Positions 21,036-28,707 of a DNA stretch of 64,000 nucleotides are shown here, piece after piece. Source of the DNA: Streptomyces roseicoloratus (lineage in GTDB: Bacteria; Actinomycetota; Actinomycetes; Streptomycetales; Streptomycetaceae); contig NZ_SDOY01000131.1 in NCBI RefSeq assembly GCF_004117935.1, positions 124,001 to 188,000 of the forward strand, written 5' to 3'. Positions within the stretch are counted from its first letter, which is position 1. Every line of letters begins with the position of its first letter. The notes beneath the pieces are model-generated. The model did not search any database. It was not told where the DNA came from and saw nothing but the letters and a program-made list of their open reading frames with translations. The translations under genes were made by a program, and so were the position numbers.

Positions 21036-22634
21036 ATGAGCGGCCCCAGGAACGCGAACGTGAACGTGAACGCGCAGACCACGCCCGACCGGACCACGCC
21101 CAGCCCGACCACGGACGGACGGCCCTCGGCCGGACCGGTCACCGTCGGCCGGTCGCCCGCCGGGCCGCCGCACGTCGTCGTCGTGGGCGGCGGCATCTCC
21201 GGACTCGCCGCCGCCCACCGGCTCGTCACCGCCGGCGCCCGGGTCACCCTCCTCGAAGGCGGCTCCCGGCTCGGCGGCAAACTGCTCGCCGGGGAGATCG
21301 CCGGGGCACCCGTCGACCTCGGCGCCGAGTCCCTGCTCGCCCGCCGCCCCGAAGCCGTCGCGCTCGCCGAACGGGTCGGCCTCGCCGACCGGATCCAGGC
21401 CCCCGCCACCACCACCGCCTCCGTCTGGTCCCGCGGCGAGCTCGTGCCCATGCCCAAGGGCCACGTCATGGGCGTCCCGGCGGACGGCCGGGCCGTCGAG
21501 CGGCTGCTCTCCGCCGAGGCCGTCGCCCGCATCGAGCGCGACCGCGAGCTGCCCCCCACCGAGATCGGCGAGGACATCGCCATCGGCGCGTACGTCGCCG
21601 AGCGCATGGGCCACGAGGTCGTCGACCGGCTCGTCGAACCCCTCCTCGGCGGCGTCTACGCGGGCGACGCGTACCGCATCTCCATGAAGGCCGCCGTCCC
21701 CGCCCTCTTCCGGGCCGCCCGCACCCACGCCACGCTCGGCGAGGCCGTCCGCGCCGTCCAGCGGGCCGGCGCCGCCACCCCGGCCGACGCCGCGGGAGCC
21801 GGCACCGGGATCGCCGGCGGCGGCCTCGGCGGCGCCGCCTTCGCCGGCCTGCGCGGCGGCATCGGCACCCTGCCGCTCGCCGTGGCCGACGCCGTCCGCG
21901 CCGCCGGCGGCGAGATCCGCACCGGCACCCCCGTCACCGGCCTGCGCCGCACCGGCCCCGACGGCTGGCAGGTCGTGACGCCGGAGCGGACCTACGCCGC
22001 CGACGCCGTCGTCCTCGCCACGCCCGCCGGACCCGCCGCCGCGCTCCTCGCGGACCACGCGCCCGCCGCCTCCGCCGAGCTGGACGCCGTCGAGTACGCC
22101 TCGATGGCCCTGATCACCCTCGCCTTCCGGCGCGCCGACCTGCCCGACGGCACCGGCCTGCCCGGATCCGGCTTCCTCGTGCCGCCCGTCGACGGCCACA
22201 CCATCAAGGCCTCCACCTTCGCGAGCCGGAAGTGGGGCTGGATCGCCGACGCCGCGCCCGACCTGTTCGTGCTGCGGACCTCCGTCGGTCGGTACGGCGA
22301 GGAGGAGCAGGTCCACCGCGACGACGCCGACCTCGTCGACGTCTCACTCAAGGACCTGGGCGCCGCCACCGGCCTCGCCGCCCGGCCCGTCGCCACCAGC
22401 GTGACCCGCTGGATCGGGGGCCTGCCCCAGTACCCGGTCGGCCACCTGGCCAGGGTCGGACGCATCCGCACCGCCGTCTCCGCCCTGCCCGGCCTCGCCC
22501 TCGCCGGCGCCGTCTACGAGGGCGTCGGCATCCCCGCCTGCGTCGCCTCCGCCCACCGGGCGGCCGACGAGATCCTGGACGAGATCATCGCCACGTCGCA
22601 AAAGGCCGACCCTGGTGCGGGACACTGTCCGTGA
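21036..22634 (+). CDS. hemY: Coproporphyrinogen III oxidase / protoporphyrinogen oxidase HemY
   Basis: A 532-residue FAD oxidase. The dinucleotide fold [17 protein letters not shown] follows a 45-residue Thr/Pro-rich tail. The C-terminal signature is YPVGHLARV with [22 protein letters not shown]. In actinobacteria, HemY (CgoX) acts with HemQ in the coproporphyrin-dependent route, oxidising coproporphyrinogen III to coproporphyrin III. The 17-bp gap to hemQ shows an operon. The ATG at 21036 follows GAGAGAG. The DUF4349 gene is divergent. Confidence 0.92.
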
Positions 22635-22651
22635 CGGGCGAGAATAGGCGT

Positions 22652-23365
22652 ATGAGTGCGCCCGAAAAGATCCCGAACGCCGGTAAGAAGGCGAAGGACC
22701 TCAACGAGGTCATCCGCTACACCCTGTGGTCTGTGTTCAAGCTGCGCGACAACCTGCCCGAGGACCGGGCCGGCTACGCCGACGAGGTCCAGGAGCTGTT
22801 CGACCAGCTCGCCGCCAAGGACATCACGATCCGCGGCACGTACGACCTGTCCGGTCTGCGCGCCGACGCCGACGTCATGATCTGGTGGCACGCCGAGACG
22901 AGCGACCAGCTCCAGGAGGCGTACAACCTCTTCCGCCGTACGAAGCTGGGCCGCGCCCTGGAGCCTGTCTGGTCGAACATGGCGCTGCACCGCCCCGCCG
23001 AGTTCAACAAGTCGCACATCCCGGCCTTCCTGGCCGACGAGACCCCGCGCGACTACGTCTCGGTCTACCCGTTCGTGCGCTCGTACGACTGGTACCTGCT
23101 GCCGGACGAGGACCGCCGCCGGATGCTCGCCGACCACGGCAAGATGGCCCGCGGCTACCCGGACGTGCGCGCCAACACGGTCGCCTCGTTCTCGCTCGGC
23201 GACTACGAGTGGATCCTGGCCTTCGAGGCCGACGAGCTCCACCGGATCGTCGACCTCATGCGCCACCTGCGGGCCTCCGAGGCGCGGATGCACGTCCGCG
23301 AGGAGATCCCGTTCTACACCGGCCGCCGCAAGAGCGTGCCGGACCTGGTGGCCGGCCTGGCCTGA
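22652..23365 (+). CDS. hemQ: Coproheme decarboxylase HemQ (chlorite-dismutase family)
   Basis: A 237-residue haem-binding enzyme that oxidatively decarboxylates coproheme to haem b, the last step of the actinobacterial pathway. The candidate catalytic Tyr is Y139 ([12 protein letters not shown]). The proximal haem ligand is H162 (LADHGKMAR). The Arg residue that defines true chlorite dismutases is not present at the usual place, fitting HemQ. It is co-transcribed with hemY. It ends only 22 bp before a convergent peptidase gene. Confidence 0.93.
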
Positions 23366-23387: not shown

Positions 23388-25178
23388 TCACCGTCCGGCG
23401 CCCAGCCGGGCGGTGATCCCTCGACCCGGAAGATCAGACGGCCGGCGGAGTTCCGCCTGCCGCTCCAGCGACACCGGGTCCGGCTCCGGGTGCGGCGCGC
23501 ATGACGCGCGCCGCACCGGCGTCCCTTCCTTCCCGTCCTCCGCCTTCGCGACGGCCGGCACGGCACCCGTGAGCAGATAGCGCTCCAGGTAGCCGTTCAC
23601 ACAGGCGTTCGGCCCGCCCGCGGTGCCGTGGGTGCCGGCGTTCCGCTCGGTCACCAGCGCCGCGCCCGCCAGCCTGCGCTGCAGCTCCAGGGCTCCCTCG
23701 TACGGCGCCGCCGCGTCCCGCTCCGCCGCCAGGATCAGCACCGGCGGCAGCACGCCTCGCCCGGTCCGCACGTCCAGCGGCTTCTGCCGCGGCGCCTTCC
23801 AGTACGCGCAGGGCAGGTTCGCCCACACGTTGTCCCAGGTCTCGAACGGGGCGAGCTTCGCGAGCCGGGTGTTGTCCCGGTCCCACAGCGCGAAGTCCTC
23901 CGGCCAGGGCGCGTCGTTGCACTCCACCGCCGTGTAGACGGCCGTCGCGTTGCCCGGGTCGGTGCCCTCGGCCGCACCCGCACCCGCGTTCGTGCCGGCG
24001 CCGTCCGGCGCGGCCACCGGCGGGGCCGGCGGGGCGGCCTGGGCGACCAGCGGCTTCGGGTCGCCCGCCAGATACGCCCCGAGGGCGCCCGCCCGGGCGG
24101 GCCAGAACCGGTCGTCGTACAGCGCCTGGAGCATGGCCGAGTGCAGCTGCCCGGGGCCGACCTTCCCGGCCGCCGGCGCGGCGGCCAGCTCGGCCCGCAC
24201 CTTCTCGTAGTTCTCGGCCACCTCGCCGGGCGTCGCGCCCAGGCCGTACACCGCGTCGTGCTTCGCCGCCCAGGTGCGGAAGTCCGTCCAGCGGCGCTCG
24301 AAGGCGAGCGACTGGTCGAGGTTGTGGACGTACCAGATCCGCTCCGGCGCCGGGTTCACCGGCGCGTCGAGGACCATCCGGCGCACCCGGTGCGGGAACA
24401 GCGTCGCGTACAGCGCACCGAAGTACGTGCCGTACGAGGCGCCCAGGTACGTCAGGCGGCGCTCGCCCAGCGCGGCCCGCAGCACCTCCAGGTCGCGGGC
24501 GTTGTTGAGCGAGTGGTAGTGCCGCAGTGCCGCGCCGGTGCGGCGGGCGCAGCCCTGCGCGTACGTCCTGGCGCGGGCGATCCGCTCCTGCTTGAAGACC
24601 TCGGACGGCACCGTCGGCGCGAGCGTCGGGCCCTTCGCGCGGTCGGCCGGGTCCTGGCAGGAGACCGGCGCCGAGCGGCCCACCCCGCGCGGGGCGTAGC
24701 CGACGAAGTCGTACGCGGCGGCGATGCGCCGCCAGGCCGGCAGGTCGGCGGCGAGCGGGAACCAGGTGGAGGAGGCGCCGGGGCCGCCCGGATTGTGCAC
24801 CAGCGCGCCCTGCCGGCCGTCCGCCGGGCCCGAGGCCTTCACCCGGCTCACGGTGAGCGGGATGCGCGTGCCCTCGGGGTGCGCGTAGTCGAGCGGGACG
24901 CGCACCGTGCCGCACTCCACCGGCGCGGGCAGCCGCTCGACCGCCGGACACGGACCGAAGCGGATGCCCTCGGCGGCGGCCTTCCCGGCCGCGACGGCGA
25001 CGCCCCGGCTCTCGGCGGGCGGCGCGTCGACCGCCGGAGCCGTGGCCGGAAACGCGGCCGCCGGGGCCGTGGCCGCCGGAAGCGCGGCGGCAGGAGCGGT
25101 CTGAGCGGAGACGGAGGCGGGCCCCAGGAGGGCGGTGGGGGTGACGAGGGCGGACAGCAGCAGCGCGACGGACTTCAT
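23388..25178 (-). CDS. Secreted S33-family alpha/beta-hydrolase (tripeptidyl aminopeptidase type)
   Basis: A 596-residue exported peptidase-like hydrolase. Residues 1-27 are a Sec signal peptide (MKSVALLLSALVTPTALLG). An Ala/Pro-rich linker (28-60) follows, then a hydrolase fold with oxyanion motif HNPGGPG (129-134), nucleophile S248 in GASYG, acid Asp in AERDAAAPY and His in NAGTHGTAG. The C-terminal cap resembles the TAP-like domain of Streptomyces SlpD/Tap peptidases. It follows two TIGR04222 genes on the same strand after 93 bp. A role in trimming their products is possible but unproven. Confidence 0.85.
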   Translation of the reverse strand: MKSVALLLSALVTPTALLGPASVSAQTAPAAALPAATAPAAAFPATAPAVDAPPAESRGVAVAAGKAAAEGIRFGPCPAVERLPAPVECGTVRVPLDYAHPEGTRIPLTVSRVKASGPADGRQGALVHNPGGPGASSTWFPLAADLPAWRRIAAAYDFVGYAPRGVGRSAPVSCQDPADRAKGPTLAPTVPSEVFKQERIARARTYAQGCARRTGAALRHYHSLNNARDLEVLRAALGERRLTYLGASYGTYFGALYATLFPHRVRRMVLDAPVNPAPERIWYVHNLDQSLAFERRWTDFRTWAAKHDAVYGLGATPGEVAENYEKVRAELAAAPAAGKVGPGQLHSAMLQALYDDRFWPARAGALGAYLAGDPKPLVAQAAPPAPPVAAPDGAGTNAGAGAAEGTDPGNATAVYTAVECNDAPWPEDFALWDRDNTRLAKLAPFETWDNVWANLPCAYWKAPRQKPLDVRTGRGVLPPVLILAAERDAAAPYEGALELQRRLAGAALVTERNAGTHGTAGGPNACVNGYLERYLLTGAVPAVAKAEDGKEGTPVRRASCAPHPEPDPVSLERQAELRRPSDLPGRGITARLGAGR

Positions 25179-25271
25179 CGGCGCGTCCCCTTCTCTTTCC
25201 GGGCCCGGGCGGGCGGGGCGGCACGGGGCGACACAGGGATCGTTGGCGGCCGGGGCGGCCAAGTAAAGGAA

Positions 25272-26009
25272 CTACGACGGGTGTCGGCTGTCATGTCCCC
25301 GAAAGGCCGCACGCAGCGCGGGTTCCAGGACGACCGTGCCGCGCCGCGCGAGCGCCGTCATCGGGTCCGTCGACGAGAGCCCGGCGAGCAGCCGCCGCCC
25401 GGCGGGCGAGGCCCAGCAGCCCGCTCCGCCGGCCCGCGCGACCAGCAGACACAGCCCGCCCGCCAGCAGCGGCATCGCGAACCACGCCGCCACCGGCACC
25501 CGCACGCCCTCCGGCACGAGCAGCACCGCGGCCGCGGCCAGCACCAGGGTCAGCAGGAACGCGCCGAGCAGCCCGCGCCCGCCCGCCACCGAGGTGCGCC
25601 GCTCCGCCTCGGGCAGCGCGAGCCCCCGTGCCACCAGGCCGTCCGCGAGCGCCCGTACGCACGAGGTGCCCGCGACCAGCGGCCGTACCGCCCGGACCGG
25701 GGACTGGCCGCCGGGCCCGATCGCCCGGAGCACCGCGCGCTCCAGCTCGTCCCGGCCGCCGTTCCCGTCCACGACGGTCGCCCAGCCGGTGTGCGCGAGC
25801 AGCACCAGACGGGCCTGATGCAGGCTCACCAGGGCCAGATCGGCGACCCGCAGCGGACCGCCCGCGAGGTACGCCGCCTCGACGACGGTCAGCTCCTCAC
25901 CGCCCTCGCCCGGGCCCCGCGCGTCGACGAGCACCGCGTCCCGGCACACCCGCGTACAGGCCACACCCGTGACCACGAGCGAGACCAGGAGCAAGGGAAC
26001 CCACACCAT
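25272..26009 (-). CDS. TIGR04222-domain membrane protein without Cys tail
   Basis: A protein of about 245 residues. It has an N-terminal membrane helix (VWVPLLLVSLVVTGVAC), the TIGR04222 pattern EAAYLAGGPLRVADLALVSL at about 45-65, then two hydrophobic helices (about 150-175 and 180-200), and a short C-terminus ending DSRHPS. It is a paralogue of the next gene upstream but lacks its long Cys/Ser tail. The ATG at 26009 starts at the membrane helix; a GTG at 26045 is possible. No clear ribosome site is seen. The function is unknown. Confidence 0.75.
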   Translation of the reverse strand: MVWVPLLLVSLVVTGVACTRVCRDAVLVDARGPGEGGEELTVVEAAYLAGGPLRVADLALVSLHQARLVLLAHTGWATVVDGNGGRDELERAVLRAIGPGGQSPVRAVRPLVAGTSCVRALADGLVARGLALPEAERRTSVAGGRGLLGAFLLTLVLAAAAVLLVPEGVRVPVAAWFAMPLLAGGLCLLVARAGGAGCWASPAGRRLLAGLSSTDPMTALARRGTVVLEPALRAAFRGHDSRHPS

Positions 26010-26057
26010 GATCCGGTTGTACGGGAGGGCGGACCGGCCCGCCACCGGACGGCCGGC

Positions 26058-27173
26058 TCAGGAACTGCCGGAGGAACAGGAGCTGCTGCTGGAGGAGGAA
26101 CAGGAGCTGGACGAGGAGGAGGAGCAGGAACTGGACGAGGAAGAGCAGGAGCTGCCCCCGGAGGAGCAGGAGCTGCCGCCGGAGGAGCAGCTCGACGACG
26201 GCGAACCGGAACCCGAGCCCGAACCGGACCACGAGGAGCACGACACCCCGCCCCCGGAGCACGAGCCGCTCCCGGAGCACGAGCCCGCTCCGCCGCAGCC
26301 GCCGCCCCCGCTCTCCCCGCCGGCCGCCGCCGCGCACCACACGACCGGCAGCAGGACGGCCGCGTCGAGGGGGGACGAGGACGACGAGGACGACGAGGAC
26401 CTCGCGTGGGAGGAGGCGGGGTGGATGACCGGCCGCGGCGGACGGTAGGTCCGGGCCGTCGTGGTCAGCTGCTCGCGCAGCCCCGGGTCCGGCAGCGAGC
26501 GCAGCCCCCGCAGGGCGACGAGCAGCCCCGGGTCCGCGTGGCCGCGGTCCCGCCCGTACGCCGCCACCGCGGCACGCCCGGCCGGGGTGACCCGCCGCCG
26601 CGCCCTGACCGTGCACAGGACCGCGGCGGTCAGCCAGGCGGCGAGCACCGGCAGCACCAGCAGGAAGAGCGGCACGCCTCCACCCGGACCGGTCAGGTCC
26701 GCCAGCGTGAAGAAGAAGGAGAACAGCGTCAGGACGCCGCCGAGGAACCCGAGGAACGTTCCCCACTGCGCGGCCGAGCGGCGCGGCCGGGGCTCCATGA
26801 GCAGCCCGCGTGCCGCGAGCGCGTCGCCGACCTCCTGGACGGCGGGGTGCCGCATCACGGCGATCCGCAGCGGTCCGAGCGCCCCGCTCGCCGCGCCGGC
26901 CAGCTCCTGGAGCACGGCCCGCTCGACCGGATCGTGCGCGGTCGGCCGCAGCACCCGCACGATGCCGGGGCCGCCGACCGCCAGACGCCCGTCGGCGTGC
27001 AGCGAGGCGATGGCCGTGTCGACGACCCGGGCCGGGCCGCCGTTCAGGAACGCCGCCTCGTAACGGTCGTGGACATGGCCGCCCTGGCCGCGCCCCAGCC
27101 GGCCCAGCTTGACGAAGAGCACGGCCGTGGCCGGCACGCCGACCAGGTAGGAGAAGACCACGAATCCGGTCAT
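26058..27173 (-). CDS. TIGR04222 membrane protein with Ser/Gly/Cys-rich C-terminal tail (putative modified substrate)
   Basis: A 371-residue protein. It has an N-terminal membrane helix (1-22), the TIGR04222 core (YEAAFLNGGPARVVDTAIASL, 38-58), two more helices (about 137-159 and 167-188), a possible fourth (268-286), then a tail of about 85 residues made almost only of Ser, Gly and Cys. Ten tail cysteines lie at 293, 299, 305, 312, 329, 336, 343, 350, 358 and 366, mostly 6-8 residues apart. The start is 7 bp after the MNIO gene stop, so the pair is coupled. The tail is the likely target of that enzyme; this is inference. The antisense frame is also open but low-complexity. Confidence 0.85.
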   Translation of the reverse strand: MTGFVVFSYLVGVPATAVLFVKLGRLGRGQGGHVHDRYEAAFLNGGPARVVDTAIASLHADGRLAVGGPGIVRVLRPTAHDPVERAVLQELAGAASGALGPLRIAVMRHPAVQEVGDALAARGLLMEPRPRRSAAQWGTFLGFLGGVLTLFSFFFTLADLTGPGGGVPLFLLVLPVLAAWLTAAVLCTVRARRRVTPAGRAAVAAYGRDRGHADPGLLVALRGLRSLPDPGLREQLTTTARTYRPPRPVIHPASSHARSSSSSSSSSPLDAAVLLPVVWCAAAAGGESGGGGCGGAGSCSGSGSCSGGGVSCSSWSGSGSGSGSPSSSCSSGGSSCSSGGSSCSSSSSSCSSSSSSSCSSSSSSSCSSGSS

Positions 27174-27180
27174 GGCTGCC

Positions 27181-28707
27181 TCACACCCTTCCCAGGGCCG
27201 TACGGATCCGGTGCCCGAGCCGGGCCGCCGGGCCCGGCGGCCGGACGCCCGCGCGTTCCCGCCACCAGGCGGTGAGCCGCTCGCGCGCCGCCGGGTCCTC
27301 GGGCCGCCCGGCGACGAGCAGCCCCTCGACGAAGTCGAGGGCGTCGTGCCGGTAGCCGTCCGTCATGGGCCGGTTCCTCGCGTACGAGAGGAACGCGGGC
27401 CGGTAGTCCTCGCCGAGGATGTCCGGCAGCTCGGGCGCCACCTTGGCCACGACGTCGGCCCGCTTGGCCGCGAGCGCCCGCCGCTGCACGCCGAGCCGCC
27501 GCACGTCGAACCCCTCGGGCGCGGGCGTCCCGGCGACCAGCGCGGAGAGCAGCGCCACTTCGGCGACACCGACCCGCTGGCGGGCGGCGTCGGGGGCGGC
27601 GGTGCGGGGGACGGGGACGGCGGTCCGGGCGGCCGGCGCGGCGCCCGGCGGGGCCGGGGCCGGGTCGGGTGCGGGTCCGGGTGCGGGCGGGGGTGTGGGC
27701 GTCTGTGCCGGAGCCGGTACGGATGAGGTTGCGGGGACGTGCTCCGGTGCCGGCACCGGCACCGGCACCGGCACCGGCATCGGGTCGCCGGAGACCCGCG
27801 CGCCCGCGCCGATGAGCAGCGGCCGGGACCGCGCGGGAGGCTCGGCGTCGACGGCGCCGGTGTTCCTCCGCGTGCTCGCGCTCGTCAGCGTCGTACGGAT
27901 CGCGTCGAGTTCGGCGGCCAGCTCCTCCGGAGCGGGGAAACGGTCGTCCCGTTCCAGGAGCACGCCCGGCGGCGAGACCCGGGAGGCCAGGTCCGCCAGG
28001 ATGTCCAGGACCGGCCGCGAGACCGGGTGGGCGTGGGTGTCGTGCCAGACACCGTCGCGCTCGAGACCGCCCGCCACGTGCACGTACGCGAGGGCCTCGA
28101 CCGGCAGCGCGGCCAGCGCCTCGGCCGGGTCCTCGCCCCGGTTGACGCGGTTGGTGTGGAGGTTGGCCACGTCGACGAGGAGCCGCACCCCCGTGCGCTC
28201 CACCAGTTCCGCCAGGAACTGGCCCTCCGTCAGCTCCTCGTCCGGCCAGGAGACCAGGGCGGCGATGTTCTCCAGGGCGAGCGGCACCGGCAGCGCGTCC
28301 TGGGCGATCCTGACGTTCTCGCAGAGCACGTCGAGGGCGTCCCAGGTGCGGGGCACCGGCAGCAGGTGCCCGGCTTCGAGCAGGGGCGTCGCGGTGAGCG
28401 GACCGCCGGCCCTTACGAACGCGATGTGCTCCGTCACCAGCGGCGCGCCGAGCGACTCGGCCTTCCCGGCCAGCGCGGCGAGCCGCCCGGCGTCGGGCCG
28501 GTCGGCCCCGCCGAGCCCCAGCGAGACCCCGTGCGGCACCACGGTCACCCCGCGCGCCCGCAGCCGTGCCAGGGATTCGGGCAGGTGACCGGCGCAGATG
28601 TTCTCCGCGACGACCTCGACCCAGTCGACTCCCGGCAGCGCCTCGACCGCGTCCGCGATCTCCGGCCGCCAGCCGATGCCGACCCCGAGTTCCTTCATGT
28701 CTGCCAT
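27181..28707 (-). CDS. DUF692 (MNIO) enzyme fused to a partner-like C-terminal domain
   Basis: A 508-residue protein. Residues 5-278 are a DUF692 TIM barrel of the multinuclear non-haem iron oxidase family. Candidate metal ligands are H59 (PHGVSL), E93/H94 (TEHIAF), E146 (LEN), D179, N182 and H184 (DVANLHTN), H210 (YVHVAGG), D223 and H225 (DTHAH) and E252 (LLERDD). Residues 280-375 are a Pro/Ala/Val linker coded partly by a hexamer DNA repeat. Residues 380-470 ([17 protein letters not shown]...[13 protein letters not shown]) resemble HvfC/BufC-type (DUF2063) MNIO partners. The ATG has a strong AAGGAGG site. It is first in an operon with TIGR04222 genes. Confidence 0.88.
27745..27780. repeat. 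Hexamer repeat coding the MNIO linker
   Basis: Repeated GGCACC units, five or more in a row on the plus strand, code the PVPVPVPVP part of the interdomain linker of the DUF692 protein. Such repeats are prone to length change. Confidence 0.75.

Follow-up and report, generated by a model that had tools for sequence, protein, structure and literature searches.

Multinuclear iron oxidases (MNIOs; DUF692) of the HvfB and FonB types make copper-binding 5-thiooxazoles, as stated in the accessible portions of PMC13419390 and PMC13097082. In the former, HvfB is described as needing its partner protein to attain its active iron state, and an HvfB-HvfC fusion made by engineering as highly active. Antoine et al. 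(2025; PMC12452194, of which a portion was accessible) proposed subsets of TIGR04222 proteins as MNIO substrates and described their tails; Table 2 of that article lists the arrangement 'Adjamnio-II - MNIO - TIGR04222', adjamnio-II being a peptidyl-tRNA hydrolase. In that portion, PME-type-2 partners are predicted in at least 10% of the TIGR04222 clusters, many clusters seem to be without a partner, how these partner-less clusters work is left open, and one-third of the TIGR04222-bearing genomes are without an MNIO. Here, we describe a locus of Streptomyces roseicoloratus in which an MNIO gene is followed by a gene for a TIGR04222 membrane protein with a Cys-rich tail. It lies in a stretch of 64,000 nucleotides (hereafter, the window; NZ_SDOY01000131.1, positions 124,001 to 188,000). 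A first-pass annotation, made from the sequence alone, had presented the pair as a possible new system without a described product; no described product was found, but the pairing had already been proposed in PMC12452194. A literature search on MNIO fusions and membrane substrates, with most subscription journals outside its range, gave no title or abstract pointing to this locus. Beyond the accessible portion of PMC12452194, three features appear new, namely the built-in partner, the predicted inward-facing tail, and small one-helix proteins that carry a similar tail.

We consider it somewhat probable that this MNIO, carrying its own partner as a C-terminal domain, oxidises Cys residues of the Ser/Gly tail that the adjacent TIGR04222 protein carries. 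The tail would most likely lie on the cytoplasmic face of the membrane, within reach of the enzyme; the product would probably be a flexible tether bearing a series of 5-thiooxazole-like groups, and the modified tail, anchored in the membrane, would buffer copper or another soft metal. What is read from sequence comprises the genes, the fusion of the domains, the linkage, and the co-occurrence; the identity and fold of the partner and the topology are predicted, and thiooxazole formation and metal buffering are inferred from family resemblance.

The four consecutive minus-strand genes of the first-pass annotation are all present, each with a family match (Table 1), and its interval of 7 bp between the MNIO stop and the start of the candidate substrate gene (TIGR04222 #1) was borne out. 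Its span (25178-28707) covers the MNIO and both TIGR04222 genes and ends where the hydrolase gene begins. The ten spaced Cys residues that it counted in the tail are present, but the total is 11 (within residues 280-366), the additional one lying in a Trp-Cys motif ahead of the others; the fused C-terminal domain of the enzyme had gone unmentioned. TIGR04222 #1 and its tailless paralogue (TIGR04222 #2) score 144.1 and 121 bits, respectively, both above the curated cut-off of 43 for this near_uncomplex family. The former consists of an N-terminal helix, a winged-helix-like soluble part, a helical hairpin, and the Cys tail, and the model of its residues 1-285 has a predicted local distance difference test (pLDDT) score of 86.2. 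In total, three TIGR04222 matches (two at this locus) and one PF05114 match were identified in the source genome.

The MNIO domain scores 261.5 bits against a PF05114 gathering cut-off of 25, which places the enzyme in the superfamily. Its best-scoring curated families are BufB and HvfB, and it falls below the NCBIfam equivalog cut-offs of both (179.6 vs 310 bits and 141.2 vs 360 bits, respectively). The catalytic domain matches PDB chains 8hci_D and 3bww_A, as well as MbnB (7dz9). Nine residues (H59, H94, E146, D179, N182, H210, D223, H225, and E252), which lie in the motifs expected of an MNIO, are invariant in the alignment of all 61 members of the clade defined below. In HvfB, N175, D242, and H244 have been reported to be essential, and the D-x-H spacing of D242/H244 agrees with that of D223/H225 in the window.

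The class survey comprised 296 genomes, 66 with PF05114 and 77 with TIGR04222 matches at 1e-8, to which one genome from a phylum survey (G013) was added. In total, 115 loci were fetched, and 70 MNIO domains were long enough for a tree; the profiles behind several of the counts, including that of the partner domain, were built from the window sequences. A further set consisted of the best 80 loci of 428 relatives; its query included the partner domain, which biases it toward fused enzymes, and it partly overlaps the survey set, with at least two loci that seem to be the same contigs.

The enzyme extends 235 residues past the catalytic domain, with a Pro-rich linker followed by a helical domain, and the length of this extension differs among fused relatives. 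The profile of the helical domain matched 63 open frames in the 115 loci. The domain is fused in 33 and encoded by a neighbouring gene in 28 of the 70 MNIOs in the tree, together 61 of 61 members (including two partial hits, L131 and L136) of a single branch with a Shimodaira-Hasegawa-like approximate likelihood ratio test (SH-aLRT) support of 98, and no match was found in the loci of the nine other MNIOs. Supported branches force at least five switches between fused and not fused, and two Streptomyces (G522 and G547) encode the domain as a separate gene; it is fused in 80 of the 80 best loci, as the bias of that set favours. The AlphaFold model of the domain (pLDDT 91.5) is all-helical and has no strand-containing RRE. 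When 207 chains were re-aligned to it by VIA-align, rank 1 was 8hci_A, a chain from the TglHI structure, with Z 6.2 over 111 residues at 3.4 Å, and rank 3 was 7dz9_C, from that of MbnABC, with Z 5.0. The two chains presumably represent the partner proteins, TglI and MbnC, because the enzyme chains of the two entries are 8hci_D and 7dz9_A/B. The window domain matches no Pfam family at E ≤ 1 and so has no DUF2063 signature, which leaves it outside PME-type-1. Pfam DUF2063 weakly matches the partner domains of 3 of 53 relatives (best E 8e-4), and a PDB profile search gave one unrelated match (E 0.48). The domain has the characters of a PME-type-2 partner, being helical, next to or fused with the MNIO in all 61 cases, and free of Pfam signatures in the window, with a structural likeness that is only moderate. 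Position, fission and fusion, and predicted fold together point to residues about 373-508 as an MNIO partner domain. In family f85, the partners continue past the helices into a stretch that looks strand-rich by eye, possibly an RRE remnant, whereas the Streptomyces domain does not.

A Cys-tailed TIGR04222 gene stands beside the MNIO gene on the same strand in 60 of the 80 best loci; among the others, 18 have only tailless TIGR04222 genes, with one of these truncated at a contig end, and 2 have none (one on a short contig). Of 69 distinct Streptomyces tails, 68 retain a WC[A/G] motif, and this conservation rules out that the tail is a frame artefact or a chance feature. In Streptomyces, most tail Cys residues come after Ser or Gly (the first after Trp); the next residue is Gly, Ser, or Ala, and the spacing between Cys residues is mostly 4-9. 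As a rough control, 1267 crudely called genes from the 115 loci contained 40 Gly/Ser-rich tails, all in TIGR04222 proteins, of which 31 had at least three Cys residues; this control is weak, the gene caller having been biased toward MNIO and TIGR04222 frames and having overlooked the small tail proteins described below.

In the survey loci, a TIGR04222 gene is present on the same strand in 48 of the 61 partner-type MNIO loci vs 0 of the 9 other MNIO loci. For co-occurrence, which covers the genomes where TIGR04222 was found, a Cys tail was defined as at least three Cys residues in Gly/Ser context within the last 60 residues. As first scored, Cys tails occurred in 39 of 53 genomes with and 2 of 25 genomes without a partner-type MNIO. 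Both exceptions were inspected and rescored by hand: in G453 the frame had been lost behind unread bases and the real tail has no Cys run, and in G362 the MNIO is cut by a contig end. The counts then became 40 of 54 and 0 of 24, respectively. In family f84, Cys tails were found in 7 of 7 genomes with the enzyme vs 0 of 12 without, and within one genus a relative without the MNIO (G349, compared with G362) is also without the tail. Several TIGR04222 proteins from genomes without the enzyme retain a Gly/Ser/Asp-rich tail with no Cys run. The TIGR04222 surveys of many genomes scored nine candidates per genome, so absences there are soft; in a closer Streptomyces scan, all candidates were scored in 17 of 18 genomes and 91 of 99 in the remaining one. 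One locus without an MNIO (L182, 6520-7539, plus strand) has a TIGR04222 Cys tail that runs into a partner-domain remnant and looks like a deletion scar; it was left out of the topology and tail counts, as was L188.

The contrary evidence named by the first-pass annotation was mostly not found: the linkage, whose lack across genera would have counted against the pairing, extends over several families, and intact tails in species lacking the enzyme were seen in none of the 24 TIGR04222 genomes without a partner-type MNIO. Linkage is stronger evidence than the phylogeny-limited co-occurrence. With the small tail proteins, both support well the assignment, by that annotation, of the tail as an MNIO substrate, the modification itself being a prediction from sequence.

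Thirteen partner-type loci are without TIGR04222. In six of these (L130, L132, L142, L153, L156, and L157), a short protein of 83-119 residues is encoded beside the MNIO and its partner, with one N-terminal helix, an Arg-rich stretch, and a Gly-rich tail containing several Cys residues. Because the tail can exist without the TIGR04222 domain, these mini proteins support the tail itself as the substrate. Scans of five of them gave no NCBIfam match at E ≤ 1 and no Pfam match that passed the cut-off. For those of L130, L132, and L142, the innermost of the possible start codons, located at the MNIO stop, was chosen; upstream starts exist inside the MNIO gene. The other seven loci comprise one at a contig end (L109), the Streptomyces loci L116, L118, and L119, and L128, L131, and L154; the genome of L128 encodes a Cys-tailed TIGR04222 protein elsewhere. 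The mini protein of G361 (L157, 6531-6803, minus strand) matches the Pfam family YxzE, a 'putative bacteriocin', below cut-off (E 0.0017), and only passing mentions of YxzE were found in the literature. In f85 loci such as L128, L130, and L142, the MNIO cluster lies between genes that we take to be phenylalanyl-tRNA synthetase-like and arginine-biosynthesis-like. The mini proteins may correspond to the 'adjamnio-V' of Antoine et al., very small proteins encoded right after MNIO genes.

The topology test covered 93 of 102 TIGR04222 frames, and 85 of the 93 showed three clear helices. All 85 (37 of them Cys-tailed; proteins shorter than 240 residues were left out) have the Lys/Arg pattern of an N-out/C-in protein, with 705 vs 145 residues summed. 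The six mini proteins have 5-7 Lys/Arg residues right after their sole helix and 0-1 before it, given the chosen starts. The fourth segment, immediately before the tail, is weakly hydrophobic, with a median Kyte-Doolittle (KD) value of 0.55 in 10 Streptomyces proteins and 1.31 in 27 others. It is included in the portion of the TIGR04222 model, about 34-242, for which GOLPH3/Vps74, presumably cytosolic proteins, gave alignments with Z values of 8.1, 7.7, and 6.9. ExbB/TolQ chains rank at or above GOLPH3 (Z up to 8.9), and these alignments were taken for long-helix matches. Among 80 TIGR04222 members, Pfam GPP34 and DUF2207_C match weakly in 4 and 11, respectively. Because of the charge pattern, the charges of the mini proteins, and the weakly hydrophobic segment within the part aligned to GOLPH3/Vps74, the tail is predicted to lie on the cytoplasmic side, contrary to its published placement; a fourth membrane crossing is possible in some families.

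Several observations weigh against an MNIO with a fused partner acting on an inward-facing tail. Antoine et al. assign the tail to the periplasm (PMC12452194, accessible portion), and the KD value of the fourth segment rises to 1.8-2.5 in five non-Streptomyces proteins and to 1.76 in one Streptomyces protein. Foldseek found no match at E ≤ 0.001 either with the TIGR04222 model or with that of the partner domain, for which the MbnABC chain 7dz9_C came second with E 3.5. By the own note of VIA-align, Z values of 5-6 are weak for helical folds, and unrelated NF45/NF90 chains tie at Z 5.0. An independent-pairs test on the TIGR04222 tree, with only three supported contrasts, was not significant (median p 0.5). 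In addition, a clade of 14 Streptomyces species (support 94; L097-L101, L103, L104, L107-L109, L111, L114, L118, and L119) keeps the fused enzyme with the nine residues intact in 14 of 14, and no Cys-tailed TIGR04222 was found in this clade or in G547, matches below cut-off not being inspected. Together they make up the 15 of 25 sampled Streptomyces that have the enzyme but no Cys-tailed TIGR04222 protein beside it. In G451, the fused enzyme stands beside a Cys-free tail. The tailless TIGR04222 paralogue is kept in 12 of the 14 species, and the 14 enzyme-bearing TIGR04222 genomes without a Cys tail comprise 12 Streptomyces, G451, and G013 (cut by a contig end). A search of tail-less Streptomyces for free-standing tails with a profile of the six mini proteins, covering 150 of 227-397 candidates per genome, gave only two weak matches (G161 and G531), neither of them at the MNIO locus. 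When the fetched loci were scanned, no free-standing tail appeared near their MNIO genes, and such tails were rejected as the missing substrate on this basis. A small CxxC protein encoded upstream of the locus in some Streptomyces was rejected as an alternative substrate as well: 20 of 28 Streptomyces have it, whether tailed or tail-less, and its gene often lies at another place in the genome. The tail-less lineages point to another substrate or to the tail having been lost first.

These lineages, together with the locus that has a Cys-free tail, are also what would be expected if the tail bound metal simply through its thiols and something else were the target of the enzyme; we regard this as quite improbable in view of the lack of any Cys tail in the 24 TIGR04222 genomes without this enzyme type and of the one-helix tails adjoining the same type. 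Oxidation of the tail Cys residues could also lead to cross-links, an oxazolone-thioamide, or beta-carbon excision, and to a structural or signalling product instead of a metal buffer. MNIOs carry out many reactions (PMC12452194, accessible portion), the Ser/Gly-Cys-Gly/Ser context of the tail is unlike the Lys-Cys context of fontiphorin, and no copper gene was recognised by eye among the conserved neighbour groups, most of which are unannotated; with BufB and HvfB as the nearest curated families, such chemistry seems unlikely. A tail on the outer side, with Cys residues modified in the cytosol before its passage through the membrane, in the manner of a bufferin that remains tethered, would fit the published topology (PMC12452194, accessible portion). 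It would also fit an extra crossing by the fourth segment in some families, a local hydrophobic stretch (KD 1.52) ahead of the tail in the window protein, and the possible upstream starts in three of the six mini proteins, which would add Arg before the helix. The uniform N-out/C-in charges of the 85 scorable proteins, the low KD of the segment in Streptomyces within the part aligned to GOLPH3/Vps74, and the single helix with 5-7 Arg/Lys residues after it in the mini proteins argue against such a crossing, which we consider an appreciable but lesser possibility.

The first-pass annotation had listed the S33-type peptidase among the four consecutive genes, and a four-gene maturation operon, with this hydrolase releasing or trimming the modified tail, would suit the common strand and close spacing in the window as well as the presence of the hydrolase group in 19 of 25 Streptomyces loci. 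No member of that group turned up within six genes of the MNIO in the loci of other families, in which the MNIO, its partner, and the tail remain linked, so that the hydrolase is probably outside the system and the operon very improbable. The peptidyl-tRNA hydrolase, likewise present in 19 loci, all from Streptomyces, was rejected as a part of the system as well.

Extending the reading in which the partnered enzyme oxidises the tail, we tentatively suggest, as a plausible generalisation, that one MNIO clade, always partnered and often fused, modifies Gly/Ser/Cys tails on interchangeable anchors at the cytoplasmic face. These anchors would be TIGR04222 (perhaps a GPP34-like domain with an inserted hairpin) or a single helix, and the modified tail would either soak up metal as a fixed sponge inside the cell or act as a donor for a partner in the membrane. 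A fused or adjacent partner weakens the stated obstacle, the partner-less clusters, to MNIOs modifying full-size membrane proteins; if the tail faces inward, MNIO products would not be limited to secreted peptides. The mini proteins, as short candidate substrates, make the reaction directly testable, and the tail-less Streptomyces lineage offers a clear test for a further substrate.

The features of the locus are listed in Table 1. In the TIGR04222 tree, TIGR04222 #2 falls in a 17-row Streptomyces group (support 100); it has a CxxxC motif (Cys18 and Cys22) where the first helix ends on the inner side, as have four other Streptomyces copies. Genes for a chlorite-dismutase-family protein and an amine-oxidase-fold protein (window 21036-23365, plus strand) adjoin the locus in 22 of the 25 sampled Streptomyces loci. 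We take these to be HemQ-type and HemG/CgoX-like, respectively, and they might mark a meeting point of haem and copper biology or plain synteny.

Table 1. Features of the MNIO-TIGR04222 locus of Streptomyces roseicoloratus (window coordinates)
Feature	Position	Strand	Remarks
MNIO (DUF692) enzyme	28707-27181	minus	508 aa, PF05114 E 9e-78
MNIO catalytic domain	27889..28686	minus	residues 8-273, PF05114 E 9e-78
Pro/Ala-rich linker of MNIO	27592..27888	minus	residues about 274-372, from sequence
Fused predicted partner (PME-type-2-like) domain	27184..27591	minus	residues about 373-508
TIGR04222 #1, candidate substrate	27173-26058	minus	371 aa, NCBIfam TIGR04222 E 5e-42
Ser/Gly tail of TIGR04222 #1, 11 Cys from Trp-Cys	26061..26339	minus	residues 279-371
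Tailless TIGR04222 paralogue (#2)	26009-25272	minus	245 aa, TIGR04222 E 6e-35
TAP/S33-type alpha/beta hydrolase	25178-23388	minus	596 aa, PF08386
PTH2 peptidyl-tRNA hydrolase, upstream of MNIO	29542-28826		PF01981 match

The locus shares with the MNIO-TIGR04222 clusters of Antoine et al. the enzyme, the membrane family, a Cys-rich Ser/Gly tail as the proposed substrate, and a like gene order. As far as the accessible portion of PMC12452194 goes, many of those clusters seem to have no partner gene and the tail is called periplasmic, whereas here a partner accompanies 61 of 61 sampled enzymes and the charges point inward; the peptidyl-tRNA hydrolase there is PF01195, whereas that of the window is PF01981. 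BufBC, HvfBC, and FonBC (bufferins, oxazolin, and captophorins) likewise combine a Cys-oxidising MNIO and a partner with repeated Cys residues, but their precursors are secreted with signal peptides and their partners are of PME-type-1 (DUF2063 plus RRE), in contrast to the membrane-anchored candidate and the partner without an RRE, all-helical in its model, of the window. The natural one-chain enzyme is the type of construct engineered for HvfBC, and it has the same domain order as the HvfB-HvfC fusion (PMC13419390, accessible portion). TglHI and MbnBC resemble it in that their non-enzyme chains (8hci_A and 7dz9_C) rank 1 and 3 for the fused domain, with Z values of only 6.2 and 5.0, and differ in having soluble peptide substrates and separate partner genes. 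MovX also has a possible partner function within one chain, but the domain added to it is described as a winged helix or an RRE, unlike the DUF2063-like helical type, in the accessible portions of PMC12452194 and PMC13419390.

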